Positions 1-18,363 of a stretch of DNA of 21,481 bases are shown here, piece by piece. The notes under the pieces are model-generated. The model made no database searches. It saw only the letters and a list, made by a program, of their open reading frames with translations, and was not told the DNA's origin. Source of the DNA: a virus; IMG/VR virus record IMGVR_UViG_3300006920_000306, positions 1 through 21,481 of that record. One strand, written 5' to 3'. The stretch's first letter is position 1. Every line of letters begins with the position of its first letter. The translations under genes were made by a program, and so were the position numbers.

Positions 1-197
1 AGGTTTGTTGCATTGTTTAGCGTTAGTAGCCCGACAATAGGTGAACCCGATTCGGGCTTTACAGTCCATTGAATATCACAAAACAAAGTCCCCTCCGTCT
101 GCCCAATCAAAGAAGAAATGCCCGTTTTAGAAGCAACATCAGCCCCCCGTGTCACCGCCGCCGAAAGGGTTGGGATGTAGGAGGTGGCGTAGGAGCC
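1..197 (-). CDS. Tail/adhesin protein, downstream part in the -1 frame (partial)
   Basis: This stretch has no start of its own. It is the continuation, in the -1 frame, of the tail protein that starts at 1369. Read from base 197 leftwards it stays open to the window edge and encodes GSYATSYIPTLSAAVTR, then a segment around SKTGISSLIGQTEGTLFC and CDIQW. That is the linker and start of a concanavalin/LamG-like domain, commonly found directly after the carbohydrate-binding-like repeat in phage tail and head-spike proteins. The upstream frame instead ends after an unrelated Pro-rich tail at 152. The coding likeness of this frame is strong; whether it is translated as a fusion (slippage) or is lost (mutation or base-calling error) cannot be decided from one sequence. 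Confidence 0.75.
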
Positions 198-1369
198 AGC
201 TCCCACTGAATACCCCAACACAAGTACGAATAAGCTGGAGCGCTTCCACTATTATAAAACAAAACAAAGGTGTGGCTTGTTGCCGTAGCCGTGAAAGTAT
301 AGGTAATACGCTGCCAAGTTGACGTAGGCGTAAAATTGGTTTGCGAAAATCCCGTTACTTGGAAGCTCTGTTGTAATTGCGTAGTACCGTCAGATTTAAC
401 GTAAAAGCTTATTGTATATGCGGTACCAATTGTCAATCCAGATATAGCTCTTGCTATTTGCGGGAAAGCACCGCCAATTGATACAATTCTATCTGCGTTT
501 TGATAACCATCTGGTGATTCGGAATAATTAGCCGTAATAGAAATGCTCGACGATTTTGGCCAGTAGGTGTTGTCCAGTTGCTCTGAGAATAGGGCCAGAT
601 TCGTCCGCTGCGGTTCCAAGAGAAGCGAAGGACAATTAGCCCCACCCGAATAGTCAAGGCGAGGGATGTTAGCGAGAGGTCCTACAGATACAGCAGAGGT
701 GGTTGTTTCAATGTAGTCGGTTGCGACATCGCCTGTTTCAAGTTGGGCGTCTTGTATGTAGATGTTTCCGCTTGTGCCGCTTGTGTTTCCGTCTCCATCT
801 GCTGGATATATGTAAATAGCGTTTACCGATTTGTTTACTACAACCGAACAACGAAACCATCCATTAGCAACGCTTTCAATTTTAGAGGTTACTACGGCAG
901 AAGTTGAACCTAAAGCACCGCTGCCCGATAAATCAAAATAAGCAGAAGAAAAAGTACCACCGCCTAAACCTAAACGAACCCAATTAAGTGTACCCGATTT
1001 CACATAAATAGAAAGTGTTTGAACACCGCTAACAGATATGCTTTGACTCATTGCTTCAACCGCCGCATTTTTAGCCAAAAGCCACGCATCGCTTGAGCCA
1101 TCGTACCCACTTTGTCCACTTGTTACACTTACTCCCGTTCCAGCCGTTCCCTTTACCCAAGAAGCATTGCTATAAGTGTTTGACTGCAACAAGAGATTCG
1201 TCCGTACCTTCTCAATCAACCCATCAGGACCTACGCGGGTGGCAGTATCATTAGAACGCGAGAATGTTAAATCGGCCGATCCGTCATCAGGCACCGAGCT
1301 ATATACCTTACTGGTCTTGTAACCAGATGGGACCATAACAACCGATGCATCTTCATAGAAGTTACTCAT
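152..1369 (-). pseudogene. Tail/adhesin protein with two carbohydrate-binding-like modules, frameshifted near its end
   Basis: The frame from ATG 1369 codes 405 residues. The N-terminus (about residues 8-53) has the familiar phage tail pattern VPSGYK...FSRSNDTATRV..DGLIE. Two beta-rich carbohydrate-binding-like modules follow, at about 60-220 and 255-393, the first closed by QLETGDVATDYIETT. The linker PRLDYSGGANCPSLLLEPQR lies between them. This architecture is typical of virion adhesins that bind surface glycans; binding itself is inference. The second module should close with QWEL-GSYATSYIPT, but this frame reads QWEL-APTPPP and stops at a TGA at 152-154. The expected residues are present in the -1 frame from base 197 onward, so the gene is frameshifted here and is also cut by the window edge. 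It follows the fibre gene with a 2-nt gap. Confidence 0.85.
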
Positions 1370-2969: not shown

Positions 2970-3323
2970 TTATTTATTCAATATGATATCGACGATGTCT
3001 GTCTCCTCCTCAAGCTCTGGGCGCTCACCCTTGCGCTGGGAGATAAGCTTGGACTGCTGGACAGCTTGCTTTTTAACGCGCTCGTCCTTGCGATCCTCTT
3101 TCTCCTTCTCAAGGTTTTGCTTTACGCCAGATTCAATCTGCTGCTCGGCTACACCGTAGCGACCCTTAAGGTCTTCAAGCTGCATCTTAAGCTGGTACTC
3201 CAGTTGCATAAGCTGTGCCTTTGCTTGGGATTCCAACTGAATCTTCTGAGCATCCAGCTGAGCTCTCATCTGCTCCTCCTGCACCTTGCCCTGTGAAGTA
3301 GCCATAGCAGTCTGCTGGTTCAT
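2970..3323 (-). CDS. Gln/Lys/Glu-rich coiled-coil ORF, probable severed C-terminus of the portal
   Basis: The 117 residues are almost entirely a charged heptad-like helix (EEQMRAQLDAQKIQLESQAK..., then EKEKEDRKDERVKKQ) with an acidic tail ELEEETDIVDIILNK. The reading frame is the same as the portal's: portal ...SQNSQM, TAG, AQ, then MNQQTAMATSQ. Portals of related Bacteroidota phages commonly end in a Gln-rich coiled coil of just this type, so this was most likely the portal C-terminus (total about 812 residues). It may now be translated by reinitiation at ATG 3323, by amber readthrough, or the TAG may be an error. As an independent protein it could be a scaffold-like factor. Confidence 0.75.
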   Translation of the reverse strand: MNQQTAMATSQGKVQEEQMRAQLDAQKIQLESQAKAQLMQLEYQLKMQLEDLKGRYGVAEQQIESGVKQNLEKEKEDRKDERVKKQAVQQSKLISQRKGERPELEEETDIVDIILNK

Positions 3324-3329
3324 CTGAGC

Positions 3330-5408
3330 CTACATCTGTGAGTTCTGAGAGGCAATCTCTTGCTGTTGCTTGATACGCTTCTTACGGCGCACTACAAGAA
3401 GGCGCTCCGCTTGGTCAATATCTTTTAACTGTCGGATAGCGATAGCATCCTCCAAGTCAATCTCTCTCTGAGATAGAGCTACCTGAATGTTCTGCTCCAA
3501 GTAAGCACGGTCTACCTCGTTCATATCGCTGACGACACGCACCCCGAAGTTGTACATCGGAAGGTTAGAGAAAGAGCTAAGCACCTTCATATTCTCCTTA
3601 CCGATAGCGTTCTCATAGGCTTGGAACAGAATACTCTTAGGAGGCACGATTTGAAGGCATTTAACGATGTCTTCGCACACTCGGCGGTACAGTACCAACG
3701 AAGCGTTAGTAATGTCGTAGAGGGCGTTATTTGCGGCCGCAAGGGCTTGTTGACGCACACCTACCAACTGCTCTCCTTTGGGAGATGTTCCATCCATCAC
3801 CTCGTTGATTCCCGTAGCATCACGGATCATACGCAGGTAGTGGTTGTACAGAGCGATAAGCTCATTGATATTACGGATGCTATTATCAAGCGGACGCACA
3901 GGTGGATTCTGGAATCCTCCCTCTGGGTTCTTACTGCGATAATAGAAGACACCCGTTTGTTCGTAGATGTCCTGAATATCAAGCGGTTGCAACTCTCCAC
4001 CCCGACCGAGCTGTACATTCTCAAGTCCTTCGATGTCGACAAGGAGTCCGTCAGGCTTCGCTTTAGCTATCGCTTGCTGAATCTTTAGGTGCGAAAGTTG
4101 AAGCTGGTCAGCAAATCCAATGACTCCAGAGACCATACTTTTTGGAATCATCCGACGGATATTGGTTGCAACGGCGCTATAGCTCATACGTGTACGGCTC
4201 AAGTCGTGTACGTTTTTAGGTACATTCTTCTTTAGTCCGTAGTTGTAGATGTAGTTGGTTCCAATGATAAACGTACCTCCGTAGAGCGTAGCATTCTGCA
4301 TATATACAGCCTCGCGGTCATATACGCTATTACTTGGTGCGTTGTACTTAGTGCCCTTGTAGTAGAAACCGATGTTTCCGTAGGCGCTTGTTTTTTTCTC
4401 AAAGATGACGTTGTCTACGCTGACAAACTCAAAGTCCATTATGTTTACGGTGTACTCATCATATCCGTAGTTATAACGCTCAAGGTTTCTGTCGTAGCTT
4501 GTATTCTCAAAGATGTTTGGATTATTGCCGTAGCGGTTCATCACCGTGCGGGCCATATTTTTGTACTCCTCTTCGGTAAACTGATCGCCAGCAATGCGCT
4601 TTAATTCAGAGATAGAAATACGCTGAATGTGACCAGCGTATACGATATCGGAGAAGTTCGGGTCGTCAGTGTAACTATGCACAAAATAAGCGGGGTCAAC
4701 GTATTTGGTGACAATGCCATAATTGGGATCGTTTTCGCGTTTGACAACAGCTACACCAACTGTGACGAGATCCTCTACGCAACGGCGATAGATGCGCTCA
4801 TCAAAGTCATTCCAAGACAAAGTCAGGTTGATACCGATCTGTGCAGCAATCTCTGCAGCGGTCTTTACGTTTGACTCCAAGAAGATTTCAACTTCTTCGG
4901 GAGTGTCGGGAAGCTCAGCGGGGTCTACCTTAACCTTAAGGCCCGATGCGTTTGCTTCTTCGATTATGTCGCGGTTTTCTACACGAACCTTAATCTTGTT
5001 CTTCTCAATGTCTTTTTCGTTGCGAGAAAGAGGATCAATAGCCTCGACGTTTGGATACATCTTGGCTGAGAGAATTTTGTTCGTTACAATCTTTACAAAC
5101 TTCGGGACAATAGGAACAGGAGTCCAATCCAGAGACAGTAGAGCGCCGTCACCGTTGTTAGGGTCCAGCGATGTAAGAATTTGCTTATAGATCGAAGTGT
5201 CTTGGGTGCCGTTAGCATAATCTCGTGAAATTTCAAATTCCCGCCAGCGTTTCGCATACAGGGAGCCATCAATTTCCACACCTCCCCATTGGGAGTAGAT
5301 CGCCTTAGCATACTGAAGCCCGTACTGCTTTGTGAGCTTTTGGGCTTGTTCTGCTAACGGATCTGGGAAAATAGACTCGTAATTTGATGATTTTCCAGTA
5401 TAGTCCAT
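3330..5408 (-). CDS. Portal protein (possibly truncated by an amber codon)
   Basis: The 692-residue product is a phage portal, the dodecameric ring at the capsid vertex through which DNA is packaged. Supporting features are its place just downstream of the large terminase, its size, and the hallmark region RDATGINEVMDGTSPKGEQL followed by VGVRQQALAAANNAL (about residues 530-570), a pattern repeated in portals of Bacteroidota phages. The N-terminus (YAKRWREFEISRDYANGTQD) and the helical C-terminal wing (EVDRAYLEQNIQVALSQREI) also fit. Translation stops at TAG 3332-3330, in frame with the coiled-coil ORF that follows. TAG is otherwise rare as a stop in this window. A promoter-like TATCTTTG lies 23 nt upstream of ATG 5408. 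Confidence 0.88.
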   Translation of the reverse strand: MDYTGKSSNYESIFPDPLAEQAQKLTKQYGLQYAKAIYSQWGGVEIDGSLYAKRWREFEISRDYANGTQDTSIYKQILTSLDPNNGDGALLSLDWTPVPIVPKFVKIVTNKILSAKMYPNVEAIDPLSRNEKDIEKNKIKVRVENRDIIEEANASGLKVKVDPAELPDTPEEVEIFLESNVKTAAEIAAQIGINLTLSWNDFDERIYRRCVEDLVTVGVAVVKRENDPNYGIVTKYVDPAYFVHSYTDDPNFSDIVYAGHIQRISISELKRIAGDQFTEEEYKNMARTVMNRYGNNPNIFENTSYDRNLERYNYGYDEYTVNIMDFEFVSVDNVIFEKKTSAYGNIGFYYKGTKYNAPSNSVYDREAVYMQNATLYGGTFIIGTNYIYNYGLKKNVPKNVHDLSRTRMSYSAVATNIRRMIPKSMVSGVIGFADQLQLSHLKIQQAIAKAKPDGLLVDIEGLENVQLGRGGELQPLDIQDIYEQTGVFYYRSKNPEGGFQNPPVRPLDNSIRNINELIALYNHYLRMIRDATGINEVMDGTSPKGEQLVGVRQQALAAANNALYDITNASLVLYRRVCEDIVKCLQIVPPKSILFQAYENAIGKENMKVLSSFSNLPMYNFGVRVVSDMNEVDRAYLEQNIQVALSQREIDLEDAIAIRQLKDIDQAERLLVVRRKKRIKQQQEIASQNSQM

Positions 5409-5430
5409 TCCGTAGTAGATACTTTATGGA

Positions 5431-5438
5431 CAAAGATA
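5431..5438 (-). promoter_or_regulatory. Bacteroidota-type -7 element for the portal gene
   Basis: The minus-strand TATCTTTG matches TAnnTTTG and sits in the 40-bp gap between terminase and portal genes, 22 nt before the portal ATG. The -33 region, which would lie inside the terminase 3' end, shows no clear TTTG. Confidence 0.5.
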
Positions 5439-5448
5439 CAAATAACAA

Positions 5449-7569
5449 TCAGCGAGTGATTGAGCGTACTTTCCTGAAAAACACCTTGCTATCGAAGTCT
5501 GATTTAGGTTTTTGTTTTACTTGTTTTTGAGCCGCTAAAAGAGCCAGACCGCTTGAGATGGACAAGTCAAATTTTGTACGATCGTCTATCTTAAAGTTGA
5601 TCCAGTCTTCCAGTGTTCTATTAAAATATATCTTTCCATACTCGCCTGTATTGTTGTTCACTCCCACGTGGTCGTGGATGTAAGCCTCAATAGCTTGGGC
5701 GTGAGCTTGGATAATGTCTTGAGAGTTAGATGGTATACCTTTGGTCTTGACCTTTACGTGCATTGTTCCAGCACCAAGATGCGCAGGCCTATCCATCAGA
5801 TATCCATCGTAATTACGGGACTCGAAGTATCTGGCAATGCCGTACTTGTTGTTCTCTATAAGGATAGGATATCCGTAGAAGACAGCAGCCATCAATACGT
5901 CCTCATAAAAGATTTTTGCCAGTGGTGGGCGTGATGCATATTCGGCAACAAACATATTGCTTGGATGCTCCATATTAAACTTGTTGAAGATATGGCACGC
6001 ACCCTTTGAAGAGCGGTAGTCTACAGTAGTGTCAATATCATAAGAGTCAACGCCACCGCATCCATAAAGACTATTAGGAGCAACACGCTTCCCGTATTCT
6101 TCTTTCCTCTGATTACGCATATCAGCTGGAGGTAGCCACGCAACACGCCACCGCCCATTCGGGTCGGGTCGGAACAGAACTTCTGTATCCTGTTCTCCAT
6201 TCTTCCAAACAAAGTTCCCAATAACAACAGGATTTGGATACAGATCGTCGTTATATTGAATCTGCTCGTATATCTTTTGAATATTGAATAGACTGCTTTT
6301 TGTAGAATCCCTAAATGCTTCATCCTCCGTAAAGGGAAACTGCCTAATAATTTCATTAAGTTCGTAGCTGTTGTGTTGTTGACCCTTTCGTTCGTTCTTT
6401 AGGAATGTCTTTGCTCCTATATCAGTAAATGTGCCATCCTCAGTTAAGACGGGTTTCTCTGGGTCCTCTATAATGGGATTACCGTATGGGTCAAAGAATC
6501 CTTCCAGCGCTTCGTATGCTGGAATGAAGATAGCATAAAGTCCGCTTTTTGTGCGACCGTTTTCGTTGCGGTCTCTGGGGTCTGAATCGTAGTACAGGTC
6601 GCGGTACTCACGGCCTCCTTTATCCAATGGATTGACGGTAGAACCTACGAGGGCCTTTCCGATAATACGACGTCCAACCAGCAGACAGGTTCTGTGGATT
6701 CGCCACACCTCTCTGATATCAATACCCTTCTCAAACTTACCCGCCTCATCCAAAAACAAGACGTGGGTCTTTGATCCGTCATAGGCATTGCTTACCGTGT
6801 TCTTCCAGTTGATGACCGTGTCAAGGGCTTCTCCTTTCTGGACGCTCTTATTCTTTTTGGTGATGCGCTTAGATGGCTCTCTAAAGGCCAGTTCTTGACG
6901 GGGATTTGTCGTACCATCCAAGATAGGCTGGAAGAAGAATGGGTAGGACTTGAAGATAGGCACCACCTTGCTGGAAAATACTGCAGCCTGAGCATCCGTA
7001 CCCGTCTTACTCATAATACCCAAAAGCTTGTCTTTTACCTGTGTAGCTTCGTCTACCAAGATAGAAGAGCTCATATTGGTATATCCGCTACGGCGACACT
7101 TGGTATAAATCTGTCCCATACTACGTGGGTCCGCTTCGCAGGCTGTCTGATGAATAAACAACCTACGCTGAAACTCCAGATAGCTTGGATAGCCGATATC
7201 AATCTTGCTCCACTGCAGAAACATATAGTGGTGTCCAGTAATGTATGTTGGAACACCATTATTGTAAAACCATACGCCATTACGACGGCGCAAGAACTCT
7301 TGCTCGATATATGGGCTGTACTTCTGCTGGAACTCCTTAGGGGTGGCGTACCAGTCATCCATCGTCTTGATACTCGCTAATTCTCTAGGGAGTTCTGTCC
7401 TTTCCCAGCGTTGGTCCTTCTTGGGCTTGTCGTGAAATAGTATGTCTTTCTTAGCTGGCCTCTTGGGAAGCTGTATCTTCAGAAAGGCAATCTCAATGAT
7501 TTCGCCTTCTGTATCGTCAACGCAAATGTTGACAACAGTATCCCCTTCTGTCAATTTAAGACCTGACAT
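5449..7569 (-). CDS. terL: Terminase large subunit (packaging ATPase-nuclease)
   Basis: The 706-residue product drives ATP-dependent DNA packaging into the prohead. After an N-terminal region with GHHYMFLQW (about 112-120), the Walker A position reads CRRSGYTN (158-165). It aligns with the terminase P-loop, but Tyr163 stands where Lys is expected. Walker B is intact: VLFLDEAGKF (Asp274-Glu275). LVGSTVNPLDKGG resembles the coupling motif. In the C-terminal nuclease half, GCGGVDSYDID carries the first acidic residues and MFVAEYASRPP the next conserved element. ATG 7569 overlaps the stop of the small upstream gene (TAATG), implying translational coupling, and the portal follows. The assignment is secure. 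The P-loop variant is unusual and is discussed in the findings. Confidence 0.92.
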   Translation of the reverse strand: MSGLKLTEGDTVVNICVDDTEGEIIEIAFLKIQLPKRPAKKDILFHDKPKKDQRWERTELPRELASIKTMDDWYATPKEFQQKYSPYIEQEFLRRRNGVWFYNNGVPTYITGHHYMFLQWSKIDIGYPSYLEFQRRLFIHQTACEADPRSMGQIYTKCRRSGYTNMSSSILVDEATQVKDKLLGIMSKTGTDAQAAVFSSKVVPIFKSYPFFFQPILDGTTNPRQELAFREPSKRITKKNKSVQKGEALDTVINWKNTVSNAYDGSKTHVLFLDEAGKFEKGIDIREVWRIHRTCLLVGRRIIGKALVGSTVNPLDKGGREYRDLYYDSDPRDRNENGRTKSGLYAIFIPAYEALEGFFDPYGNPIIEDPEKPVLTEDGTFTDIGAKTFLKNERKGQQHNSYELNEIIRQFPFTEDEAFRDSTKSSLFNIQKIYEQIQYNDDLYPNPVVIGNFVWKNGEQDTEVLFRPDPNGRWRVAWLPPADMRNQRKEEYGKRVAPNSLYGCGGVDSYDIDTTVDYRSSKGACHIFNKFNMEHPSNMFVAEYASRPPLAKIFYEDVLMAAVFYGYPILIENNKYGIARYFESRNYDGYLMDRPAHLGAGTMHVKVKTKGIPSNSQDIIQAHAQAIEAYIHDHVGVNNNTGEYGKIYFNRTLEDWINFKIDDRTKFDLSISSGLALLAAQKQVKQKPKSDFDSKVFFRKVRSITR

Positions 7570-7892
7570 TATTTCTTAATAAATTTTTCGGCAAAGCCAC
7601 CGCGATAGTCTATCTCCTCTGTGATGCCTCCATTGTCCGCCAACGAAGCTACCATTTCAGCAAGCTTTTGCCTTTCTACAATTAACTCCTTGCAAGCCAG
7701 TGCGGTATCCTTGATGGCTTGAAGTTCTGCTTTACGTGCAGACCCCGTAAGGTCCTGATCCACAGGCTTTTGTATTTCCGCTGTCATATTGCGGATAGCC
7801 TGCTCCATTGCGTAGATGAGATTCTGTGCAGCGTCAGCTGTTGAGTACTCTACTTCTCTACGACCATTAGATGTTGAACGAGCATTCGCCAT
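7569..7892 (-). CDS. Small helical protein in the small-terminase position
   Basis: The 107-residue product is mostly alpha-helical (AAQNLIYAMEQAIRNMTAEI; ARKAELQAIKDTALACKELI; ERQKLAEMVASLADNG). It ends FAEKFIKK and is coupled to the large terminase by a TAATG overlap. Its place immediately before terL is where small terminase subunits, which recognise phage DNA, are usually encoded. There is no evident helix-turn-helix, so this role is inferred from position only. Its start at 7892 lies inside the end of the GroES-like gene (43-nt overlap). Confidence 0.7.
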   Translation of the reverse strand: MANARSTSNGRREVEYSTADAAQNLIYAMEQAIRNMTAEIQKPVDQDLTGSARKAELQAIKDTALACKELIVERQKLAEMVASLADNGGITEEIDYRGGFAEKFIKK

Positions 7893-8428
7893 AGAGTTTG
7901 ATTGTCAATTAACATTTCATAGTCGGCATCTTTCTGGAAGTATACCGTATCGCCTATTTCAAGACCTTCTTCTTTGATCTTGTCGCTGGCGTATTTAATT
8001 TTTCCTTTCTCGTTTCTCGGAGTCTCAAATGAGACAATCTCAAGAAGCCCGCTTTTAAGCTTTTCTTCTGGGCGGATAGGCTCAAGGAAAACCCAGTCTC
8101 CCAAAGCAAGTACCTCTCCCGTGTCTTTCTTCTTGACAGCATATGCCTGAGAGGAAAATCCTCCGTCAGGACTATATAAAACCTGATATAGATCGTGGTC
8201 TTTGTCTACAAGTTGTGGGGTGATCACAACGTGGTGGTGAAAGAAAAGCGTATCGCCCTCTTCTACTCCCGTGTTGTACTTATATGGTGCGCCTACAACG
8301 ACACCCTGCATCACGCGGTGCTCAAACTCATTGAACTTGGTATCGATATAGATTTCAATATCGCCAATCTTCTTTGTCTCATTGACACGCTGGGGTACCT
8401 GTACAATAAAATGGTATAGTGGTTTCAT
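7850..8428 (-). CDS. Tandem GroES-like co-chaperonin
   Basis: The best start is ATG 8428 (MKPLYHFIVQVP...), overlapping the TGA of the upstream gene as ATGA; the product is 192 residues. The second half reads WVFLEPIRPEEK at about 116-127, KGKIKYAS at about 147, then GLEIGDTVYFQKDADYEM (about 160-177) and LWRMLVQHLMVVEK. This follows the GroES order: an N-terminal V.EP strand, a mobile-loop region, then a V.VGD.V.F.K..G..... segment and an ILAV-type end. The first half repeats the pattern more loosely (HFIVQVP..., GVEEGDTLFFHHHVV). Phages encode GroES homologues (T4 gp31 is the classic case) that cap host GroEL for capsid folding. GroES likeness is well supported by eye; a capsid-folding role is inferred from its location. 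Confidence 0.72.
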   Translation of the reverse strand: MKPLYHFIVQVPQRVNETKKIGDIEIYIDTKFNEFEHRVMQGVVVGAPYKYNTGVEEGDTLFFHHHVVITPQLVDKDHDLYQVLYSPDGGFSSQAYAVKKKDTGEVLALGDWVFLEPIRPEEKLKSGLLEIVSFETPRNEKGKIKYASDKIKEEGLEIGDTVYFQKDADYEMLIDNQTLWRMLVQHLMVVEK

Positions 8429-8661
8429 CAGAAGTTGCAATCAAATTCAAGTAATACGGGAGCGCCCTCAACAGCTTTCCAAAGCATAATGCCATCATCG
8501 CCCTTGATGTAAATCAAGTAGCGACGTTCTTTGTATTTATGAAGATGCTCTCCGTCTAAAATGATGCAATCGACCTCTGCATCGCCAGCCTTCTGACCCA
8601 CATAGTAAGCCATAGCCTTTAGTGGGTCTGATCCCACGATAATCTTACGAATGATATTCAT
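8428..8661 (-). CDS. Conserved small phage protein, unknown function
   Basis: The 77-residue product starts MNIIRKIIVGSDPLKAMAYYVG and ends APVLLEFDCNF. The pattern of a short N-terminal strand, a helix containing AMAYYVGQKA, and two beta hairpins around LIYIKGDDGIMLWKAV suggests a compact alpha/beta fold. It overlaps the GroES-like gene by ATGA, so the two are likely translated together. I recognise the style from other Bacteroidota phage late operons but no function. It is not an obvious virion protein. Confidence 0.75.
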   Translation of the reverse strand: MNIIRKIIVGSDPLKAMAYYVGQKAGDAEVDCIILDGEHLHKYKERRYLIYIKGDDGIMLWKAVEGAPVLLEFDCNF

Positions 8662-8672
8662 TTCAATTTAAT

Positions 8673-8978
8673 TTAAGCGTCACCACCTCCACCGAGCCAG
8701 TAGTCTGGATCTCCAAAGTCTGGAATATCCTCGTCTGAATAGGTGGAAGCGAGATGGGTCATTAGCGACGCCATCTCCGACTCGTTGTCCACAAAGATAC
8801 TTGAAATAGCATTGACCTTGTAGCGACCATCTTCGCCTTGATCTTCCAGAAGTCCAACGCAAAGGATACTCATATATTCGTCCTCTACGCCGTGATTTCT
8901 GGCAAGATCTTCAATCTCTTCAAATTTCTCGCGGGCCTTTATAAAAAATTCAATTCTGTTTTGTTCTTCTTTTGTCAT
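8673..8978 (-). CDS. Acidic small late protein, unknown function
   Basis: The 101-residue acidic protein has an N-terminal helix (EEQNRIEFFIKAREKFEEIE), a middle alpha/beta segment (MSILCVGLLEDQ; YKVNAISSIFVDNESEMASL) and an acidic, aromatic, Gly-rich end (IPDFGDPDYWLGGGGDA). Its start overlaps the stop of the 319-residue fibre-like gene (TAATG). No family recognised. The acidic tail might mediate protein binding, but this is speculative. Confidence 0.72.
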   Translation of the reverse strand: MTKEEQNRIEFFIKAREKFEEIEDLARNHGVEDEYMSILCVGLLEDQGEDGRYKVNAISSIFVDNESEMASLMTHLASTYSDEDIPDFGDPDYWLGGGGDA

Positions 8979-9937
8979 TAGAACGCTTTAATCAATTCTA
9001 CAGAGAAACGAATATAGTACGTTTCCCCCGTAGTATTGGTAGCGACTCTGACAAGAACAGAGGATCCAGAGATTGTAGTGTTGAAAGTAAGCTTGGTAGA
9101 GATGTCCGCACCGATGTTTGAACGGATTGTCGTGTCAATGTCAGAAGACAGACCATTTACCGTATCCCACGTTACATACATATCGCCAGCAATCTTAATG
9201 CTGCTATCTGCGTTGTATGCTGTGTAGAAGATACGAGCAGCAGAAAGGTTCGCCCACTGAATTGTATACATCGTAGTGTTTGTTGCTCCGTTTGCTACAT
9301 CTACATTTCCAGTACGCAAGTACAATCCAGCGTTAGATCCTGCAGAGCGATTAACGATTTCATCTCCAGTATATACAAGCTGTGTAGAACTATAGTTCAG
9401 ATTAGCTGCTCCTGCGCGTGCACCAGAATTATTGTACTGGATGTTGCCGCTTGATCCAGCAGCTAAAACAGTAATGTTGCTACCAAAGTAAGAAGTAAGT
9501 GTTCCAAGCGTAGCGTACTTATAGGTTGTTGCCGTAGCATCGTATACAAGGAAGCTGTCGGCGGTTGCAAGAGCCCCTGAGGTAAGCTCAGAAAGGGTGG
9601 TTGGAGCGTTTAATGAAATTACATCACTCGTAAAATCAATAGGAGCAGTAGCTGTAATAACGGCTCCAGAGGTAAATGCTGCAGACCCAAGCGTGCGCTT
9701 GACTATATTACCGCTGCCATCCAAGAACAAAGCAGACGTTTCTGTAGTTCCTGCCGTAGGGCTCGTTCCAAAAATAAGCGTTCCGTCAATCTCTACGGCG
9801 ACGGTAGAAAGCTTAAGGGCGGTGTCGTTTCCAGCGCCATCTTCAATGACCTTAGTGGTAGATGTTGCTGTTCCGCTCTCCAGCTTTAAAAGAGAGGAAT
9901 ATGCGTCTTTAACCTTTTGACCAGCAAGTGTTGACAT
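8978..9937 (-). CDS. Tail/fibre-like structural protein
   Basis: The 319-residue product is rich in Ser, Thr, Gly and Ala and looks beta-structured. The start MSTLAGQKVKDAYSSLLKLE followed by DGAGNDTALKLSTVAVEIDG, and the later SGNIQYNNSGARAGAANL, are patterns typical of phage tail-fibre and neck-fibre proteins. The last 100 residues form a separate beta domain (MYTIQWANLSAARIFYTAYN...YYIRFSVELIKAF). It is the first gene after the symmetrical promoter at 9945-9962 and leads the block that includes the chaperonin-like, terminase and portal genes. Its exact place in the virion is unknown. Confidence 0.78.
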   Translation of the reverse strand: MSTLAGQKVKDAYSSLLKLESGTATSTTKVIEDGAGNDTALKLSTVAVEIDGTLIFGTSPTAGTTETSALFLDGSGNIVKRTLGSAAFTSGAVITATAPIDFTSDVISLNAPTTLSELTSGALATADSFLVYDATATTYKYATLGTLTSYFGSNITVLAAGSSGNIQYNNSGARAGAANLNYSSTQLVYTGDEIVNRSAGSNAGLYLRTGNVDVANGATNTTMYTIQWANLSAARIFYTAYNADSSIKIAGDMYVTWDTVNGLSSDIDTTIRSNIGADISTKLTFNTTISGSSVLVRVATNTTGETYYIRFSVELIKAF

Positions 9938-10607: not shown

Positions 10608-10713
10608 ACTTACCCTCGTGAGCCATTAGAAAGTAACGACCGCCTTTGTTCATCCAGTGATAGCCCTCTGGTGCCTTGACCATCTTTTTAATATCTTTCT
10701 TTTTTGTTTTCAC
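10549..10713 (-). CDS. Small basic late protein of 54 residues, unknown
   Basis: GTG 10713 overlaps the TGA of the homing endonuclease as GTGA. The product begins MKTKKKDIKKMVKAPEGYHW and continues MNKGGRYFLMAHEGKF with an end FRILSEH. The PEGYHWM...G.YFLM.HEGKF.PH pattern looks like a genuine conserved small phage protein with an aromatic beta hairpin. It shares the MKxKK start with three upstream genes. The 3' end lies antisense to the last 59 bases of the winged-helix regulator. The start was probably coupled to the 79-residue gene before the endonuclease arrived. Confidence 0.7.
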   Translation of the reverse strand: MKTKKKDIKKMVKAPEGYHWMNKGGRYFLMAHEGKFTPHENASLEMPFRILSEH

Positions 10714-10733
10714 TTCTTTGCTCTGTTTTTAGC
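10710..10733 (-). repeat. Right-hand copy of the duplicated gene end flanking the endonuclease
   Basis: These 24 bases, read on the minus strand, encode A-x-N-R-A-K-K-stop and match 20 of 24 positions of 11477-11500. The two copies bracket the endonuclease coding body, and each ends in the TGA that overlaps the next gene's GTG. Confidence 0.7.
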
Positions 10734-11480
10734 GGCCTTCATAAAACGACGCTCATCGTGTAGCGTTCGAGTCAATCTCCAATGTTGTTTATTTGAGAAA
10801 AATTTCTTCCTGTATTCAATAAGTTCATCTGAACCCTTTATGAACCAAGCTACATTTCCATATGCAACGACTTGTTTTTTTGAGTTCAGCTTATGTAATG
10901 TCTTTGTAGACACCCCTGTTTTTTCGTAAAATGAGTCAGGATTTTCAAAAACAACAATGTCTCCGTATGCATTTTCAAACTGCATACCAAAATAAAAAGA
11001 TTTTTTCCTGTTTTTATCTCCCGTATACGCAGACAAGAAATGAACATATGATCCTTTTGATACATTATATTTTTCTGATATATCAGAATATGATGCGCCA
11101 TTAATGTACATATCTATAATTTCGTCTTTGTATTTGTAAAGAATTGGGGGAGGAGACCCACCTACCCCTCCAATCTTAGCGTTGTAGTTATTTTTTGACC
11201 TAACCCAATTGTAATCTACTAAATATGATTCTTCTTCGTAAGCTTCTTCTTTTGTATCAAAAAAAGAAAGTATCTCTAACTTAAAGTTTTTATATCCGTA
11301 TTTATTTATTGCTTTAATTAACGGAGACGTTCTATTTGCTCTTAGTTGAGACTTTACATTTTTCTCATTTAATATTCCACAACCAATATATCCATCATTT
11401 AAATTATCAGTGCTATGGACTCCGACATATGTCTTGCCATTGATTATACACTTTGTTTGATATGTAAAATGATAATTCAC
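10710..11480 (-). CDS. GIY-YIG homing endonuclease (free-standing)
   Basis: The start is GTG 11480, overlapping the TGA of the 79-residue gene; the product is 256 residues. The N-terminal nuclease domain shows FTYQTKCIINGKTYVGVHST followed by DGYIGCG (GIY-YIG core), AINKYGYKNFKLEILSFF (about 60-77), a catalytic-type Glu in EEESYLV, and YNAKIGGVGGSPP. The DNA-binding part has a helix-turn-helix (IIDMYINGASYSDISEKYNV, about 124-143) and a NUMOD-like segment ending VVAYGNVAWFIKG. Such enzymes cut phage lacking the gene and spread by repair. It is visibly richer in A+T than its neighbours, indicating recent transfer. The last residues (KNRAKK) copy the end of the upstream gene, as described in the findings. 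Confidence 0.92.
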   Translation of the reverse strand: MNYHFTYQTKCIINGKTYVGVHSTDNLNDGYIGCGILNEKNVKSQLRANRTSPLIKAINKYGYKNFKLEILSFFDTKEEAYEEESYLVDYNWVRSKNNYNAKIGGVGGSPPPILYKYKDEIIDMYINGASYSDISEKYNVSKGSYVHFLSAYTGDKNRKKSFYFGMQFENAYGDIVVFENPDSFYEKTGVSTKTLHKLNSKKQVVAYGNVAWFIKGSDELIEYRKKFFSNKQHWRLTRTLHDERRFMKAAKNRAKK

Positions 11481-12470: not shown

Positions 12471-13139
12471 TTAGGGGCAAATACAAGGATCAGTAAACGG
12501 ACAGGGGCATCCCTCTATCTTTACATCACTTGATGGAATTGGCGTTCCTACTGGATAGGGGAAGCCCTCTTTTGCTTGGGTAATGGAAGTCATACCCGAT
12601 ACAACAGGAATGGCAACACGCAAAGGAACAGCCGCCTCATTGATAGGACCGTAACACTTTGCCAATAATATATCATTCTCCTCTTTCCATATCTTACAAG
12701 GCATACAGAACATATTGCTCATACTTGTACTTGGATGATCGGTATTGACAGTAAAGGCTCTGTTGACAGGAGTAAGCAGTTCCCACGTCTTTGTTTGTGG
12801 GTCGAACTGAGGAACACTATCGGTAGCAGGATCAAAGTACCAGAATAAAGACCATACAGTGCTGTCGGTTCCATCGGGAGACTGAGGGCTGAATCCAGTA
12901 ATAGCCAAATTATTGATAGAAGGTCCATCCATTACTGGGCAGATAGCACAAGCCTCTTGAAATTCCTTGCCCTCTACCATCATAGTCCGTCCTGTAGGAA
13001 TGGCACCCGAAGCGCCACAAAAAGCATAGGGTCCAATATGAATCTGTAGAACGCTTGCTGGATGATTGCGTGTATCAACTTGAGACAATGCTGTAGACGA
13101 AAGACCTACAAGTGCAATTAATAATAGTAATTTCTTCAT
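12471..13139 (-). CDS. Cys-rich exported protein, coupled to the endolysin
   Basis: The 222-residue product has a clear Sec signal peptide, MKKLLLLIALVGLSSTALSQ, with likely cleavage after ALS-Q or ALSQ. The mature part contains many Cys in pairs or short spacings (CGAS, CAIC, FCMPC, GCPCPFTDPCICP), suggesting disulphides or metal binding in the periplasm. ATG 13139 overlaps the endolysin TGA (ATGA), so it is translated with the lysis enzyme. The location suggests a lysis accessory such as an outer-membrane disruptor or regulator, but there is no transmembrane segment or lipobox typical of spanins. It may be a protein captured from the host; function unknown. Confidence 0.78.
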   Translation of the reverse strand: MKKLLLLIALVGLSSTALSQVDTRNHPASVLQIHIGPYAFCGASGAIPTGRTMMVEGKEFQEACAICPVMDGPSINNLAITGFSPQSPDGTDSTVWSLFWYFDPATDSVPQFDPQTKTWELLTPVNRAFTVNTDHPSTSMSNMFCMPCKIWKEENDILLAKCYGPINEAAVPLRVAIPVVSGMTSITQAKEGFPYPVGTPIPSSDVKIEGCPCPFTDPCICP

Positions 13140-13603
13140 TGGTACTTTAGGTATTTAGTTTTTCCGTTTTGTTTAACAGCCTTTAAAATCTGGCCTCTGT
13201 TATGACCATAGTGGTAGGATACGTGTACCCAGTCAGGACACTCGCTGTCTCCGAACTCCCAGATGAGCTGATCGAATACCAAGTTATCCTTTATATAGTT
13301 GAACACCTCTGTGTTCTTTCCTTCACACTTACCTGTGCATATATCAATATCTGCTGCTGCACCATTGAGTGCACAATGCTGAGACGTACCACTACCCCCA
13401 ACAGCTTTATTGAGCTTAGGTACGCGCAGGCCACTGGTGATGACAATAGGACCAAGCGCATCACGCAGAGGTTGCAGTACGCTTTCGCACAGCTCACGCA
13501 TAAACTCTATTTGCTGTTCATCAGGCGTATTGTCAATACCAAGACGCTTAGCCGTCACCGACTTAGTCATCTCCGATAGAGAAAAGTTTTTACTCAGTTG
13601 CAT
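13136..13603 (-). CDS. M15-family peptidase endolysin
   Basis: I choose ATG 13603 (MQLSKNFSLSEMTKS...), giving 155 residues; a longer in-frame start at 13648 would lie upstream of the promoter. The N-terminal half (SLSEMTKSVTAKRLGIDNTP, then LCESVLQPLRDALGPIVITSG) and the zinc site SQHCALNGAAADID plus WVHVSYH match the peptidase M15 fold of D-Ala-D-Ala cleaving enzymes. His76, Asp85 (or Asp87) and His127 are the likely zinc ligands. Such enzymes serve as peptidoglycan-cutting endolysins in Bacteroidota phages. No signal peptide is present, so release would need a holin or the neighbouring exported protein. The -7 element TATCTTTG ends only 4 nt before the ATG, implying an almost leaderless mRNA. 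Confidence 0.88.
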   Translation of the reverse strand: MQLSKNFSLSEMTKSVTAKRLGIDNTPDEQQIEFMRELCESVLQPLRDALGPIVITSGLRVPKLNKAVGGSGTSQHCALNGAAADIDICTGKCEGKNTEVFNYIKDNLVFDQLIWEFGDSECPDWVHVSYHYGHNRGQILKAVKQNGKTKYLKYQ

Positions 13604-13607
13604 ATAG

Positions 13608-13615
13608 CAAAGATA
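13608..13615 (-). promoter_or_regulatory. Probable main late leftward promoter (-7 element)
   Basis: The minus-strand TATCTTTG matches TAnnTTTG and lies 4 nt from the endolysin ATG. Three operator-like palindromes lie directly upstream, at 13632-13688, the nearest over the expected -33 region, which itself has no good TTTG. This fits a promoter that depends on a phage-encoded factor; that is inference. Confidence 0.55.
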
Positions 13616-13631
13616 AATCTTATTGCAATAG

Positions 13632-13688
13632 GGGACCGTCCCATACAAAAGTTCTGGGTCATCCCATACTATTTATTGGGATCATCCC
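13632..13688. promoter_or_regulatory. Three operator-like palindromes with exact 23-bp spacing
   Basis: The sites are GGGACCGTCCC (13632-13642), GGGTCATCCC (13656-13665, one base short) and GGGATCATCCC (13678-13688), each followed by ATAC. The CCC of each site starts at 13640, 13663 and 13686, exactly 23 bp apart. The outer two are perfect dyads. Tandem dyads at about two helical turns resemble phage repressor operators. Confidence 0.6.
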
Positions 13689-14475: not shown

Positions 14476-14508
14476 CAAATCCTTTTGAAAACATTTGTCT
14501 CGTTCAAC
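14476..14508 (+). promoter_or_regulatory. Early leader/promoter module, copy 1
   Basis: This 33-base element begins CAAATCC and ends GTTCAAC. It matches 28 of 33 positions of 15329-15361, with TTTTGAAAAC in place of the TTTGCAAAC core. Its position 30 nt before the first early gene and its TTTG core suggest a phage early promoter. Confidence 0.45.
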
Positions 14509-14537
14509 AATCAAAAACCATTTAAATCTTAATTGTT

Positions 14538-14750
14538 ATGAAAATTCACACTAACCTTACTACAGAGAGCATTGATACCTATGACCTTAAAAATATGATT
14601 TCAGTACTGCGCAAAGCAATAAGAAATGATGGTCACTACATTGCTTCCGATAAAGAAGAATTGGAAGAACTATCTTGCTTCTTTGGTAGTGTTATGAATG
14701 CTATTGATTCAACACTTGAGCAAGAATATAAGAAATCCAACAAAGGTTAA
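14538..14750 (+). CDS. First early protein (70 residues), unknown
   Basis: The product starts MKIHTNLTTESIDTYDLKNM. It is mostly helical with mixed charge (MISVLRKAIRNDGHYIASDK; ELEELSCFFGSVMNAIDSTL) and ends KKSNKG. It is the first gene right of the control region and is preceded by the palindrome and promoter module. The leader directly before ATG (TTAAATCTTAATTGTT) is nearly repeated before the next gene, which has a similar size and helical content, so the two may be old duplicates. No family recognised; a role in early host takeover or regulation is only inferred from position. Confidence 0.7.
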   Translation: MKIHTNLTTESIDTYDLKNMISVLRKAIRNDGHYIASDKEELEELSCFFGSVMNAIDSTLEQEYKKSNKG

Positions 14751-14773
14751 CTGACGAGGATTCAATATCCGAA

Positions 14774-14794
14774 ATGCCGACTACACATCGGCAT
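14774..14794 (+). other. Intergenic hairpin between the first two early genes
   Basis: ATGCCGA and TCGGCAT form a perfect 7-bp stem with a 7-nt loop. There is no T-run, so RNA stability or processing is more likely than termination. Confidence 0.45.
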
Positions 14795-14824
14795 CTTAAC
14801 CAACACACTTAAATCTTATTTGCT

Positions 14825-15016
14825 ATGAAAACTTTAACCACAATCGGAGAAAACGAAATGATTAAGATGAGCATCATCTCTACCATTTCAATGCTACAAC
14901 AGAGCATTAAAAAGCCCTATATGAAGTTTTACTTTGAGGAACTATGGAACTGCGAAATTGAGAATCTTGAGAGCATTCGTGATACGATGTTGAGAGAATA
15001 CAATAGCCAATTCTAA
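14825..15016 (+). CDS. Early protein (63 residues), unknown
   Basis: This small helical protein starts MKTLTTIGENEMIKMSIIST, has a mid-section (SMLQQSIKKPYMKFYFEELW) with an aromatic cluster, and ends TMLREYNSQF. Its leader TTAAATCTTATTTGCT mirrors that of the first early gene, and both carry a helix of the type ISxLxxxIxK and a C-terminal LxxEY. I therefore suspect a distant paralogue pair, though the identity is too low to be sure by eye. No known domain. Confidence 0.68.
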   Translation: MKTLTTIGENEMIKMSIISTISMLQQSIKKPYMKFYFEELWNCEIENLESIRDTMLREYNSQF

Positions 15017-15046
15017 AGACATACTGATGAGCATTTGTGATGCGAA

Positions 15047-15064
15047 ACGAGGAGCAATCCTCGT
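15047..15064 (+). other. GNRA-type hairpin in early intergenic space
   Basis: ACGAGGA-GCAA-TCCTCGT is a perfect 7-bp stem closed by a GCAA tetraloop. It lies between two early genes without a T-run and probably acts at RNA level. Confidence 0.55.
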
Positions 15065-15091
15065 CTATGTCAAACCTAATTTAAAACGACT

Positions 15092-15286
15092 ATGTACAAA
15101 AATGATCCTCGCTCAATAAGGGCAAAGTACAACAGCATTTGTGCTGAAACAGGCAGAACAATCGCCAAAGGTGATGAGTGCATATACTATCCTCTTACGA
15201 AGAAGGTATATCATCTTGAATCTCATACTGCGGCAGATTTCTACCAATGGTCTTACGATGTTCATACCTTGAATTATGCATACTGA
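15092..15286 (+). CDS. Early protein (64 residues), possible small binding domain
   Basis: The product starts MYKNDPRSIRAKYNSICAET and continues GRTIAKGDECIYYPLTKKVY before HLESHTAADF. The pattern of a strand, a Cys-x3-Gly turn, IxKGDxCxYYP and a Tyr-His strand is like a small phage domain that in other versions carries more Cys residues and binds zinc. Here only two Cys are present, so metal binding is doubtful. The start is preceded by AAAACGACTATG without a Shine-Dalgarno sequence, the usual style in this region. Function unknown. Confidence 0.7.
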   Translation: MYKNDPRSIRAKYNSICAETGRTIAKGDECIYYPLTKKVYHLESHTAADFYQWSYDVHTLNYAY

Positions 15287-15294
15287 CTAAAAAA
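15282..15294 (+). repeat. ACTGACT-A6 element, copy 1
   Basis: ACTGACTAAAAAA is repeated exactly at 17500-17512. Both copies lie just before a long leader of a larger early gene. The TGA here is also the stop of the previous gene. Confidence 0.45.
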
Positions 15295-15328
15295 CGATAT
15301 AAACTGACTGAAACTGATTTTTTTATTC

Positions 15329-15361
15329 CAAATCCATTTGCAAACATTTGCATTGTTCAAC
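15329..15361 (+). promoter_or_regulatory. Early leader/promoter module, copy 2
   Basis: This contains CCATTTGCAAAC, close to TAnnTTTG plus the CAAAC commonly seen after it. It matches 28 of 33 positions of 14476-14508. It probably initiates the transcript that starts with the 144-residue gene. Confidence 0.45.
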
Positions 15362-15378
15362 CACTAACAACACAAACT

Positions 15379-15813
15379 ATGAAGACAATTGAAGTGAACA
15401 TCTACCCATTCAGCGAACTGACTGAACAAGCCAAAGTTCGCGCATTGATGAACTACCAATCGGACTGCGAATACGATTGGTCACACGATGCAATTCAATC
15501 CCTGAAAGCATTTATGAATGCTGTTGGTGTTGAACTTGATGACTACCAAATTGATTGGCTATGCCCATCACAAAGTAAGGTACGCTACAATGGTACGCCA
15601 CATAGCAAGTTCATCAAAGAAGAACTGACAGGTGTATTCAGTGATTATTCCTTGACCAAAACTTGGAACAAAACTAAATCCATTGAACTTTCCGTTTCGC
15701 AGTTCCTCAAGGAATGCGCTGACGACTACGAGTACCAATTGTCGGAGAAAGCATACGCAGAACATTGCGATGCGAATGACTATTGGTTTGATGAAAACGG
15801 AAACTTAATCTAA
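15379..15813 (+). CDS. Early protein (144 residues), conserved phage type of unknown function
   Basis: I choose ATG 15379 (MKTIEVNIYPFSELTEQAKV...), preceded by AACACAAACTATG; the frame is open further upstream but crosses the promoter module. The N-terminal pattern YPFSELTEQAKVRALMNYQ is shared by a widespread group of phage proteins that begin with F-x-E-L-S/T-E-x-A-K. The middle has acidic and aromatic residues (DYQIDWLCPSQSKVRYNG), and the end EHCDANDYWFDENGNLI is also characteristic of that group. It is acidic overall, soluble, with no membrane segment. Such proteins are often found among early genes and may act against host functions, but no activity is established to my knowledge. Confidence 0.8.
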   Translation: MKTIEVNIYPFSELTEQAKVRALMNYQSDCEYDWSHDAIQSLKAFMNAVGVELDDYQIDWLCPSQSKVRYNGTPHSKFIKEELTGVFSDYSLTKTWNKTKSIELSVSQFLKECADDYEYQLSEKAYAEHCDANDYWFDENGNLI

Positions 15814-15827
15814 CAACAAATAACACT

Positions 15828-16118
15828 ATGAAAACTACAATTTCCTTTAACGATTTTTATGATGGCTTCCAGAAGATCCGCCCGAACCAATTCAGCGACA
15901 AAGCATTGAAGGTGCTGTTTGAATACATTGAGCAATGCGAAGAAGAAGATGGTATTGAAATGGAATTTAGCGTGAATGATATCTCTTACGACTATACCGA
16001 ATGGTCAAACTACGAGGAATTCGCAAAAAGTTATCCAAGCATAGCATACGACAAAATCAATGAGCATACCATATTCATTGATGTAGATGGTACACGATTC
16101 ATCACTACAAACTTTTAA
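15828..16118 (+). CDS. Early protein (96 residues), conserved phage type
   Basis: The product starts MKTTISFNDFYDGFQKIRPN and includes FSDKALKVLFEYIEQCEEED, GIEMEFSVNDISYDYTEW and later ITTNF. The order ISFxDFxDxFxxxRPxxFSxxxLxxLxxYxEExEE, a beta strand, then DYTEW occurs in many small phage and plasmid proteins of unknown function. It is strongly acidic, which could mimic DNA, but that is speculation. It follows the 144-residue gene after 14 nt with the leader AATAACACTATG. Confidence 0.78.
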   Translation: MKTTISFNDFYDGFQKIRPNQFSDKALKVLFEYIEQCEEEDGIEMEFSVNDISYDYTEWSNYEEFAKSYPSIAYDKINEHTIFIDVDGTRFITTNF

Positions 16119-16139
16119 CATCCGTACAATGTAAGTAAG

Positions 16140-16179
16140 GTTGGACATAGGGGATTGGTACGGCGATCCCCAATCCAAC
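16140..16179 (+). other. Long leader hairpin before the 56-residue gene
   Basis: GTTGGA/TCCAAC and GGGGAT/ATCCCC form two stacked 6-bp stems separated by a small internal loop and closed by a 10-nt loop. It ends 17 nt before ATG 16197. No T-run follows, so a regulatory or processing structure is more likely than a terminator. Confidence 0.6.
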
Positions 16180-16196
16180 AAAACAACACTAACACT

Positions 16197-16367
16197 ATGA
16201 AAACATTTGAAATCATTATCCGAATTGAAAACTCAACCATCGTTGAAATCCAAGCAGAAGATTATGCTACTGCGGAAGCAAAAGCATACGACTATGCATA
16301 CGACACAGGAGTAGTGCACGACCTGTGCAATCCATCCGATGTAACGATAGAAACTGAACCTGCATAA
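16197..16367 (+). CDS. Early protein (56 residues), unknown
   Basis: ATG 16197 is chosen because of the leader AACACTATG and the hairpin upstream; an earlier ATG would start inside the hairpin. The product begins MKTFEIIIRIENSTIVEIQA, continues EDYATAEAKAYDYAYDTGVV and ends PSDVTIETEPA. The order beta-beta-alpha-beta, with an Ala/Tyr-rich helix, is a common small phage fold. Function unknown. The next gene starts 2 nt after its stop. Confidence 0.72.
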   Translation: MKTFEIIIRIENSTIVEIQAEDYATAEAKAYDYAYDTGVVHDLCNPSDVTIETEPA

Positions 16368-16369
16368 CT

Positions 16370-16519
16370 ATGAAGGCAACACTAAAGTTTGAAACTACTG
16401 ATGGTCGCTATTGGACTATCAAAAAAGAATTCGCGGATCTTCAGCATATGAAAAACTTCATTGCCTACATCCGAAAGACAAAGAACTATATGTTGGACGA
16501 AACATTCATTAACGAATAA
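16370..16519 (+). CDS. Early protein (49 residues), conserved phage type
   Basis: The product starts MKATLKFETTDGRYWTIKKE, continues FADLQHMKNFIAYIRKTK and ends MLDETFINE. The pattern LKFETTDGRYWT..K.F....H..NFIAYI..TK.Y.LDE is recognisable from other Bacteroidota phages as a small conserved protein. The start lies 2 nt after the preceding stop (GCATAACTATG). Function unknown. Confidence 0.72.
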   Translation: MKATLKFETTDGRYWTIKKEFADLQHMKNFIAYIRKTKNYMLDETFINE

Positions 16520-16531
16520 AAAACTAAAGAA

Positions 16532-16750
16532 ATGGAATTTGAAACATTTGTAATCCTGCTACCAATCAGCATCTTTGATAGAGAGAAGGCAGAGAACATT
16601 GAAAATACAACACTAACAAATCTCTATAGTGTTGATTTTATGGAAGATGGTGGTGAAGCATACAGGTTAAGCGAATTTATGGATGCCTGTAACCACCAAG
16701 AGATTGACTTAAGAAAGAATTGGCTAACCTATGTAACTGCAACAATCTAA
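16532..16750 (+). CDS. Early protein (72 residues), unknown
   Basis: The product starts MEFETFVILLPISIFDREKA, followed by ENIENTTLTNLYSVDFMEDG and an end RKNWLTYVTATI. The first strand is hydrophobic but too short and interrupted for a membrane helix. It is acidic in the middle. It overlaps the next gene by TAATG. No family recognised. Confidence 0.68.
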   Translation: MEFETFVILLPISIFDREKAENIENTTLTNLYSVDFMEDGGEAYRLSEFMDACNHQEIDLRKNWLTYVTATI

Positions 16751-16923
16751 TGGAACACATTGAAGATATCCTACAAGCGCAAATGGACTTACTATTTGAT
16801 GCTGTTTGTGAACACTACGAATTGGAATCGGGTGACCTTTCTCCCCAACTACAGCAGAGATTAGATGACTGCGCAGAAGAACTGAACAAGATACTTGTAC
16901 AATTTGTAAAATTTAACCAATAA
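16750..16923 (+). CDS. Early protein (57 residues), helical, unknown
   Basis: ATG 16750 overlaps the previous TAA, which argues for this start over an upstream TTG. The product is a helical hairpin by appearance (MEHIEDILQAQMDLLFDAVC; LSPQLQQRLDDCAEELNKIL) ending VQFVKFNQ. It is small and acidic and could be a protein-binding factor such as an anti-host protein; there is no direct evidence. Confidence 0.68.
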   Translation: MEHIEDILQAQMDLLFDAVCEHYELESGDLSPQLQQRLDDCAEELNKILVQFVKFNQ

Positions 16924-16937
16924 AAACGACTAAAATT

Positions 16938-17147
16938 ATGACACACTATGTATGGACTTATTTTAAAGGCACTATTGAAGATGCCCAAGAAATAGTAAAC
17001 GAATGGAATGACATCACTCAAACCAAAAAGTTTCGTGTTACAGGAAACGAATACGATGATAGAACGCACCTAATTGAAGGCGAGATAGAGAAATGGGTAT
17101 TGGATGAAACTGCAATTGAAATGGACTTTATGATTGAGGAACGATGA
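16938..17147 (+). CDS. Early protein (69 residues), unknown
   Basis: The product starts MTHYVWTYFKGTIEDAQEIV and continues NEWNDITQTKKFRVTGNEYD, then EIEKWVLDETAIEMDFMIEE. A beta-alpha-beta pattern with aromatic N-terminus and acidic C-terminus is visible. Its stop overlaps the next start (ATGA). No family recognised. Confidence 0.68.
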   Translation: MTHYVWTYFKGTIEDAQEIVNEWNDITQTKKFRVTGNEYDDRTHLIEGEIEKWVLDETAIEMDFMIEER

Positions 17148-17320
17148 AAACGGAAACTGAAAAACTGATTGAACTATACCATAGGATGCCTGTGGATCAA
17201 CTTGAAACTGCCCTACAGCAGATAAAGAAACAGCAGATGGTAATGGATGGAGATAATATGGAAGGCCATCAACGCCTATATGCTATGAGAAAAGCAATTG
17301 AAAAACTATTGAACCTATGA
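17144..17320 (+). CDS. Early protein (58 residues), helical, unknown
   Basis: The product starts MKTETEKLIELYHRMPVDQL, then ETALQQIKKQQMVMDGDNME and ends AMRKAIEKLLNL. It is made of amphipathic helices with no Cys. It overlaps both neighbours by ATGA, placing it firmly in the operon. It resembles small helical-hairpin phage proteins but cannot be assigned a function. Confidence 0.68.
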   Translation: MKTETEKLIELYHRMPVDQLETALQQIKKQQMVMDGDNMEGHQRLYAMRKAIEKLLNL

Positions 17321-17487
17321 AAAAGATAGCACACAACCTAATGACAGCATTATTCCTGATGATATCCTTATTAGGAATGGTATTCGGAGTACTACACGGA
17401 CAAGAGGGTAGTAACGGAGGACTAATTGTGGCCGTAGTATCAGGACTGCTGTTCTACGCCATACTAATTACTAAAGAAGAAGATTAA
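17317..17487 (+). CDS. Small membrane protein with two transmembrane helices (56 residues)
   Basis: The product has two hydrophobic segments, LMTALFLMISLLGMVFGVL (about 8-26) and GLIVAVVSGLLFYAILI (about 35-51). They are linked by a short polar loop (HGQEGSNG), and the protein ends TKEED. Size and topology fit a holin-like or superinfection-exclusion protein in the inner membrane. The holin idea is weakened by its place among early genes, far from the endolysin. It overlaps the previous gene by ATGA. Confidence 0.7.
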   Translation: MKKIAHNLMTALFLMISLLGMVFGVLHGQEGSNGGLIVAVVSGLLFYAILITKEED

Positions 17488-17499
17488 AATCAACCATAA

Positions 17500-17512
17500 A
17501 CTGACTAAAAAA
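17500..17512 (+). repeat. ACTGACT-A6 element, copy 2
   Basis: This is an exact 13-base repeat of 15282-15294, followed by GAT in both cases after zero or one base. It sits at the beginning of the leader of the 169-residue gene. Confidence 0.45.
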
Positions 17513-17566
17513 GATTTGCATAAACCAAAAACTCTTGCAAACTTGCACCCAACAAACAACACTATT

Positions 17567-18076
17567 ATGGAAAACAAACTTTATTTCGGAACTAAAATAG
17601 TCGTAAGCGATCCTTGCTACACTATTGACACTTGGTGCAATGAGATTGTATCCAATATGAAAGAGGGAAACTATATCCCCACTATTGAAGAACACGATGG
17701 TTACATCCGCAGTATCTCCATCGTACACGAAGACCATCAGGACAATGGAAATAAATGGGGATTCGTATCGGATAATATCGGTGTAGATTCAGGTCAATGT
17801 GGATTCTTTAACATTGAAAATTATCGGAATGACTCTTTGGATATTCCATTTTCAGATGCAGAAGGAAAGGACTTCTACGAATCCTACCGAAAGACCGAAG
17901 ATGGTGACCATTGGTATGGTAAGATTTGCGGATACACCCTGCGCGATGAGCAGTATGGTGAACTACAGGGTATAGGACTTGTATCTTCCAGCGGATTTGG
18001 TGATGGATCGTATAACCTATACGCCAAGCGAGATAGCAGTCGCAAAGGAATCGCCTTAAAAGTAAAATTCTTTTGA
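17567..18076 (+). CDS. DUF4241-like early protein (169 residues)
   Basis: I choose ATG 17567 (MENKLYFGTKIVVSDPCYTI...), with the leader AACAACACTATT. The pattern is KIVVSDPCY at about 10, then IGVDSGQCGFFN at about 90, WYGKICGYTL, and SSSGFGDGSYNLY at about 143 with a final strand ALKVKFF. This SDPCY...GVDSGQ.GF...SGFGDGSY order resembles DUF4241-type proteins found in phages and bacteria, whose biochemical role is not established to my knowledge. It ends its operon: a GC-rich terminator follows 40 nt downstream. Assignment to the family is by motif order only. Confidence 0.75.
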   Translation: MENKLYFGTKIVVSDPCYTIDTWCNEIVSNMKEGNYIPTIEEHDGYIRSISIVHEDHQDNGNKWGFVSDNIGVDSGQCGFFNIENYRNDSLDIPFSDAEGKDFYESYRKTEDGDHWYGKICGYTLRDEQYGELQGIGLVSSSGFGDGSYNLYAKRDSSRKGIALKVKFF

Positions 18077-18116
18077 TATTAACGAGTGCCTTCGGGATTG
18101 GGCAGGTAACATCACG

Positions 18117-18147
18117 CGGGGGGTGGCCCGACACGCCCCCGTTTTTT
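18117..18147 (+). terminator. Rho-independent terminator
   Basis: CGGGGG (18117-18122) and CCCCCG (18136-18141), with two more pairs inside past a bulge, are followed directly by TTTTTT. The 60 bases before it are unusually GC-rich and contain a CC-TTCG-GG loop, so they may form further structure. It closes the transcript ending with the DUF4241-like gene. Confidence 0.75.
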
Positions 18148-18168
18148 AACCAACAAAACAATTGAACT

Positions 18169-18363
18169 ATGAAAAAAGCATATTTAGTTTATGTATCTCT
18201 TGCTACAAGAGTAGTGGTAGATGAGAACACTACTGAACAAGACATAATCAAGTTGGCTAACGCTAACATATTAGACAACATTATTACTGATGGAATCTTT
18301 GAGAATGTTGAAGAAGTAATAGAAGACGAAGAATGTCCTTATGATAAAGAATTTGATAACTAA
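18169..18363 (+). CDS. Early protein (64 residues), acidic, unknown
   Basis: The product starts MKKAYLVYVSLATRVVVDEN and continues TTEQDIIKLANANILDNIIT, with an acidic end EEVIEDEECPYDKEFDN. A beta strand, a helix and an acidic tail are visible. It is the first gene after the terminator, and no clear promoter is seen in the 21 nt between, so it relies on readthrough or an unusual promoter. No family recognised. Confidence 0.68.
   Translation: MKKAYLVYVSLATRVVVDENTTEQDIIKLANANILDNIITDGIFENVEEVIEDEECPYDKEFDN

Follow-up and report, generated by a model that had tools for sequence, protein, structure and literature searches.

The portal gene of this phage is interrupted by an in-frame amber codon. 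We conclude with high confidence that the amber is a private one-base C-to-T difference (coding strand) at a conserved glutamine codon, in a portal that is encoded by a single gene of approximately 812 codons throughout the clade, and that it represents either an error or a recent nonsense mutation. The window (the whole stretch of DNA analyzed, 21,481 nucleotides) contains the following features on which the analysis is based.

3330..5408, minus strand: portal gene as far as the amber, 692 codons and the TAG itself (ORF list, translation, and PHROG 6547)
3330..3332, minus strand: amber TAG, codon 693 of the portal; CAG or CAA (Gln) in relatives
2970..3329, minus strand: portal frame past the amber, 119 codons followed by TAA; aligns with the C termini of intact portals
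3321..3323, minus strand: in-frame ATG two codons past the amber, a possible restart
4307..4307, minus strand: second and last difference from a near-identical contig, codon 368 of the portal; Val (GTA) here, Ile (ATA) in that contig
152..221, minus strand: region of a further lesion private to this record, which shifts the frame of a tail gene, located by comparing protein frames with those of relatives

The portal frame

The portal ORF begins with the ATG at 5408, and translation yields an upstream product of 692 amino acids with the C terminus ...SQNSQM. The TAG at 3332-3330 is followed by GCT CAG ATG, and the frame remains open until the TAA at 2972-2970, for a total of 812 codons, in agreement with the coordinates, frame, and lengths reported in the initial annotation. 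The upstream piece matches positions 5-698 of the portal profile PHROG 6547 (827 positions; E value of 3.5e-173) and the downstream piece matches positions 727-822, such that the two pieces together match across the length of this tailed-phage portal profile; Pfam yielded no model for the portal. Because both pieces match PHROG 6547, they are one protein by descent, and the proposal of a single portal frame with a Gln-rich helical end is upheld. The open frame past the amber is more than chance. As a mutation, the amber itself is unremarkable: about 5% of C>T/G>A changes create a stop in these genes, a share that rises to 12% in the portal's Gln-rich tail.

The amber site in relatives

The most informative comparison is with IMGVR_UViG_3300025645_003332 (L002), which aligns with positions 3185-9800 of the window over 6,616 bases with two mismatches and no gap (99.97% identical). 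One mismatch is at base 3332, an A in the window and a G in L002, corresponding to TAG versus CAG. The other is the codon 368 difference at base 4307, where GTA and ATA are each present among other relatives. Because both forms occur elsewhere, this second difference is a standing polymorphism, and the window is therefore not merely L002 plus errors. Since L002 otherwise matches, the amber is a single private base difference on the background of the same virus. The codons downstream of the stop were also compared with those of another relative, L003, and codons 694-812 showed 12 synonymous and 3 replacement differences. Because these differences are mostly silent, the downstream frame has not been long out of use, and the 119 downstream codons appear, from this pattern of substitution, to have been under protein selection until very recently.

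A scan of IMG/VR for relatives returned 80 loci with 70 to 100% identity, and every relative that extends far enough reads past the site and continues for ∼120 residues to a stop. In a codon census of 93 loci, including duplicates, 53 have CAG, 39 have CAA, and one, the window itself, has TAG. When contigs counted twice were removed by contig name, 84 distinct relatives covering the site remained, and all of them (84/84) encode CAG or CAA, as expected from the earlier suggestion that TAG occupies the natural place of a CAG (Gln) codon. Degenerate exact patterns across the site recovered CAR alleles (n = 19) and no TAG allele in IMG/VR, although these scans may omit records very near the window's own, where a further copy with TAG could lie. 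In the nucleotide alignment, TAG in L075 and L076 and AAA in L072 were gap-placement artifacts at 68 to 69% identity; the portal proteins of these three loci run straight through the site.

At the protein level, 19 aligned portals with identities down to 67% all share Q693, while the neighboring residues vary, and Gln is also present in three relatives derived from metagenome-assembled genomes. Among four cultured flavophages, Gln is found in three (Maribacter phage Panino, Flavobacterium phage elemoE, and Cellulophaga phage phi13:2), and Cellulophaga phage phi38:1 has Asn at the matching position. The relatives possess a single uninterrupted portal of 808 to 828 amino acids. The four cultured phages resemble the window in portal length (812 to 828 amino acids) and in a C-terminal tail that aligns, although portal identity is ∼28 to 31%, and none of their four portals has an internal stop.

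The portal belongs to a Bacteroidota-type tailed phage, with a gene order as in Cellulophaga, Flavobacterium, and Maribacter phages: phi38:1 (Pervagoviridae), phi13:2 (Pachyviridae), elemoE, and Panino likewise carry GroES, the terminase large subunit, and the portal in succession, and phi13:2 shares with the window a small gene between GroES and the terminase. The GroES-like co-chaperonin of the window (7850-8440, minus strand) lies upstream of the terminase and ends in TAG. Farther along, an ORF at 10710-11480 (minus strand) resembles a GIY-YIG nuclease (Pfam PF01541, above the cutoff), perhaps a homing endonuclease, and its end is common to some relatives. A protein with a Peptidase M15 domain (PF08291) at 13136-13648 (minus strand) is a likely endolysin. 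The run of small ORFs at 14500-21481 (plus strand) has no similarity to the fetched relatives except for a trace at the very end.

Error, mutation, and the portal barrel

The amber is private and recent, the glutamine is conserved, and the portals of the relatives are intact. Two explanations are compatible with these observations. A base-level sequencing or assembly error is, as a matter of judgment rather than computation, slightly better than an even bet; a genuine nonsense mutation that arose recently in the sampled phage, likewise a judgment and not a calculated value, is a substantial possibility that falls somewhat below even. We consider error somewhat likelier because the window has two private single-base lesions within 21 kb. 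C-to-T is a very common real change as well.

The second lesion is in the tail gene with a CBM_4_9 match. Its 405-amino-acid frame (152-1369) ends ...CWGIQWELAPTPPPTSQPFRRR, and the adjoining frame (3-221) contains ...GSYATSYIPTLSAAVTRGAD; many relatives have the two parts in one frame, e.g., ...LWGVQVELGAYATSYIPTLSASVTRVAD. Judging from these frames, a single base has probably been gained or lost near 196-200, some 200 bases short of the contig end. A nucleotide search to place the frameshift exactly gave no alignment, and an exact pattern for the site matched no locus; the lesion is seen in the protein frames instead.

If the amber is real, translation would end after residue 692, ∼30 residues into the C-terminal helix. 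An AlphaFold model of the 812-amino-acid frame contains a long helix at residues 664-758; because the model is of low confidence (mean pLDDT of 48.5), only this helix was used, and cautiously. The region at 2970..3329 is predicted to form the C-terminal part of this long helix, i.e., of the barrel. A profile search of solved structures with the portal returned no match, and the comparison with known portals is by analogy. In gp20 of phiCrAss001, which likewise has a C-terminal helical barrel, the barrel comprises residues 672-739 (PMC10172136). The portal of P22 (gp1) also has a long C-terminal helix, and the one predicted here would form a barrel. By this analogy, a truncated portal would keep its body but little of the helical barrel, the part that extends into the capsid. 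The dif1 mutant of P22 tolerates the loss of the last 50 residues of gp1 (676-725) (PMC4992974), and a truncated portal could therefore work, perhaps poorly; in contrast to dif1, ∼120 residues would be lost here, nearly the whole barrel, and the parallel is one of analogy and not of sequence match. A C-terminal fragment might also arise by restart at the ATG at 3323. That a real amber variant segregates in nature and is viable, owing either to tolerance of barrel loss or to weak amber suppression by the host, with natural phages differing in barrel length as a result, is unlikely.

Restart, readthrough, and the genetic code

Next in plausibility, although quite improbable, is a stably split portal, in which a 692-amino-acid part and a 117-amino-acid part restarted at the ATG at 3323 would be made as two proteins. 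The position of this ATG, two codons past the stop, would allow termination and reinitiation. Yet the methionine is an ancestral internal residue and not a new start: intact relatives L003-L012 and L046-L048 have Met at the matching position, and the remaining relatives have other residues there. Moreover, none of the relatives has two genes at this site, which lends no support to the earlier idea of a recently split gene, and a real split would be very recent, as the comparison with L002 indicates.

Programmed or partial readthrough, through amber suppression by the host or a leaky stop, would produce short and long portals at a set ratio. The selected sequence does continue in an open frame past the stop, and the stop sits in the modeled helix, where shortening could leave the body of the portal intact. 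A programmed stop should, however, be conserved, and none of the 84 distinct relatives (0/84) has a stop at the site; L002 is otherwise identical and lacks it. No readthrough-stimulating RNA structure was found 3′ of the stop, as the RNA around it folds no better than shuffled sequences (z = +1.01). The initial annotation had raised partial suppression, with portals of two lengths as its outcome, and had proposed looking for a suppressor tRNA. With CAG in a contig that is 99.97% identical, an RNA without readthrough-like structure, and no suppressor tRNA found in the window or relatives, we regard this as very improbable.

Recoding of amber to glutamine (genetic code 15), in which a phage suppressor tRNA would yield the 812-amino-acid portal as in some crAss-like gut phages, can be set aside almost entirely. 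Proteomics has shown that two crAss-like phages use TAG as Gln (PMC9523058), and the portal amber resembles those cases in that TAG falls exactly at a Gln codon of a late structural gene in a Bacteroidota-type phage. It differs in being a lone codon, with CAG in the near-identical contig and TAG serving as a normal stop in the present clade. Under code 15, TAG should recur in frame at numerous conserved sense positions, yet the codon at 3332 is the only conserved one seen in the window. Among stops in true gene frames within ∼2.6 to 12.4 kb, 3332 is the only one that genes of relatives run across; the remaining stop matches in this interval were judged to be alternate frames. No tRNA was detected in the window, a 21.5-kb fragment, or by Rfam and ARAGORN in the relatives, among them two records of 58,212 and 61,720 bases (ARAGORN covered the longer one up to base 60,000).

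TAG is also not shunned as a terminator. The intact portal ends in TAG in eight relatives (L014-L016, L018, L019, L025, L070, and L071), and the GroES genes of relatives terminate with TAG (12), TAA (19), or TGA (1), such that TAG swaps with TAA and TGA at both gene ends across the clade. The GroES-like gene of the window ends in TAG at 7852-7850, and a double amber, TAG AAA TAG, at 20483-20491 follows a 98-amino-acid ORF. Both had been noted previously, and the view drawn from them, that genome-wide recoding is unlikely, is borne out by the ordinary use of TAG as a stop in this clade.

The portal amber is a caution for the annotation of metagenomic viruses, since a private stop in one contig mimics recoding until a near-identical contig is compared. 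If the variant is real and viable, it would constitute a small natural test of the need for the portal barrel.
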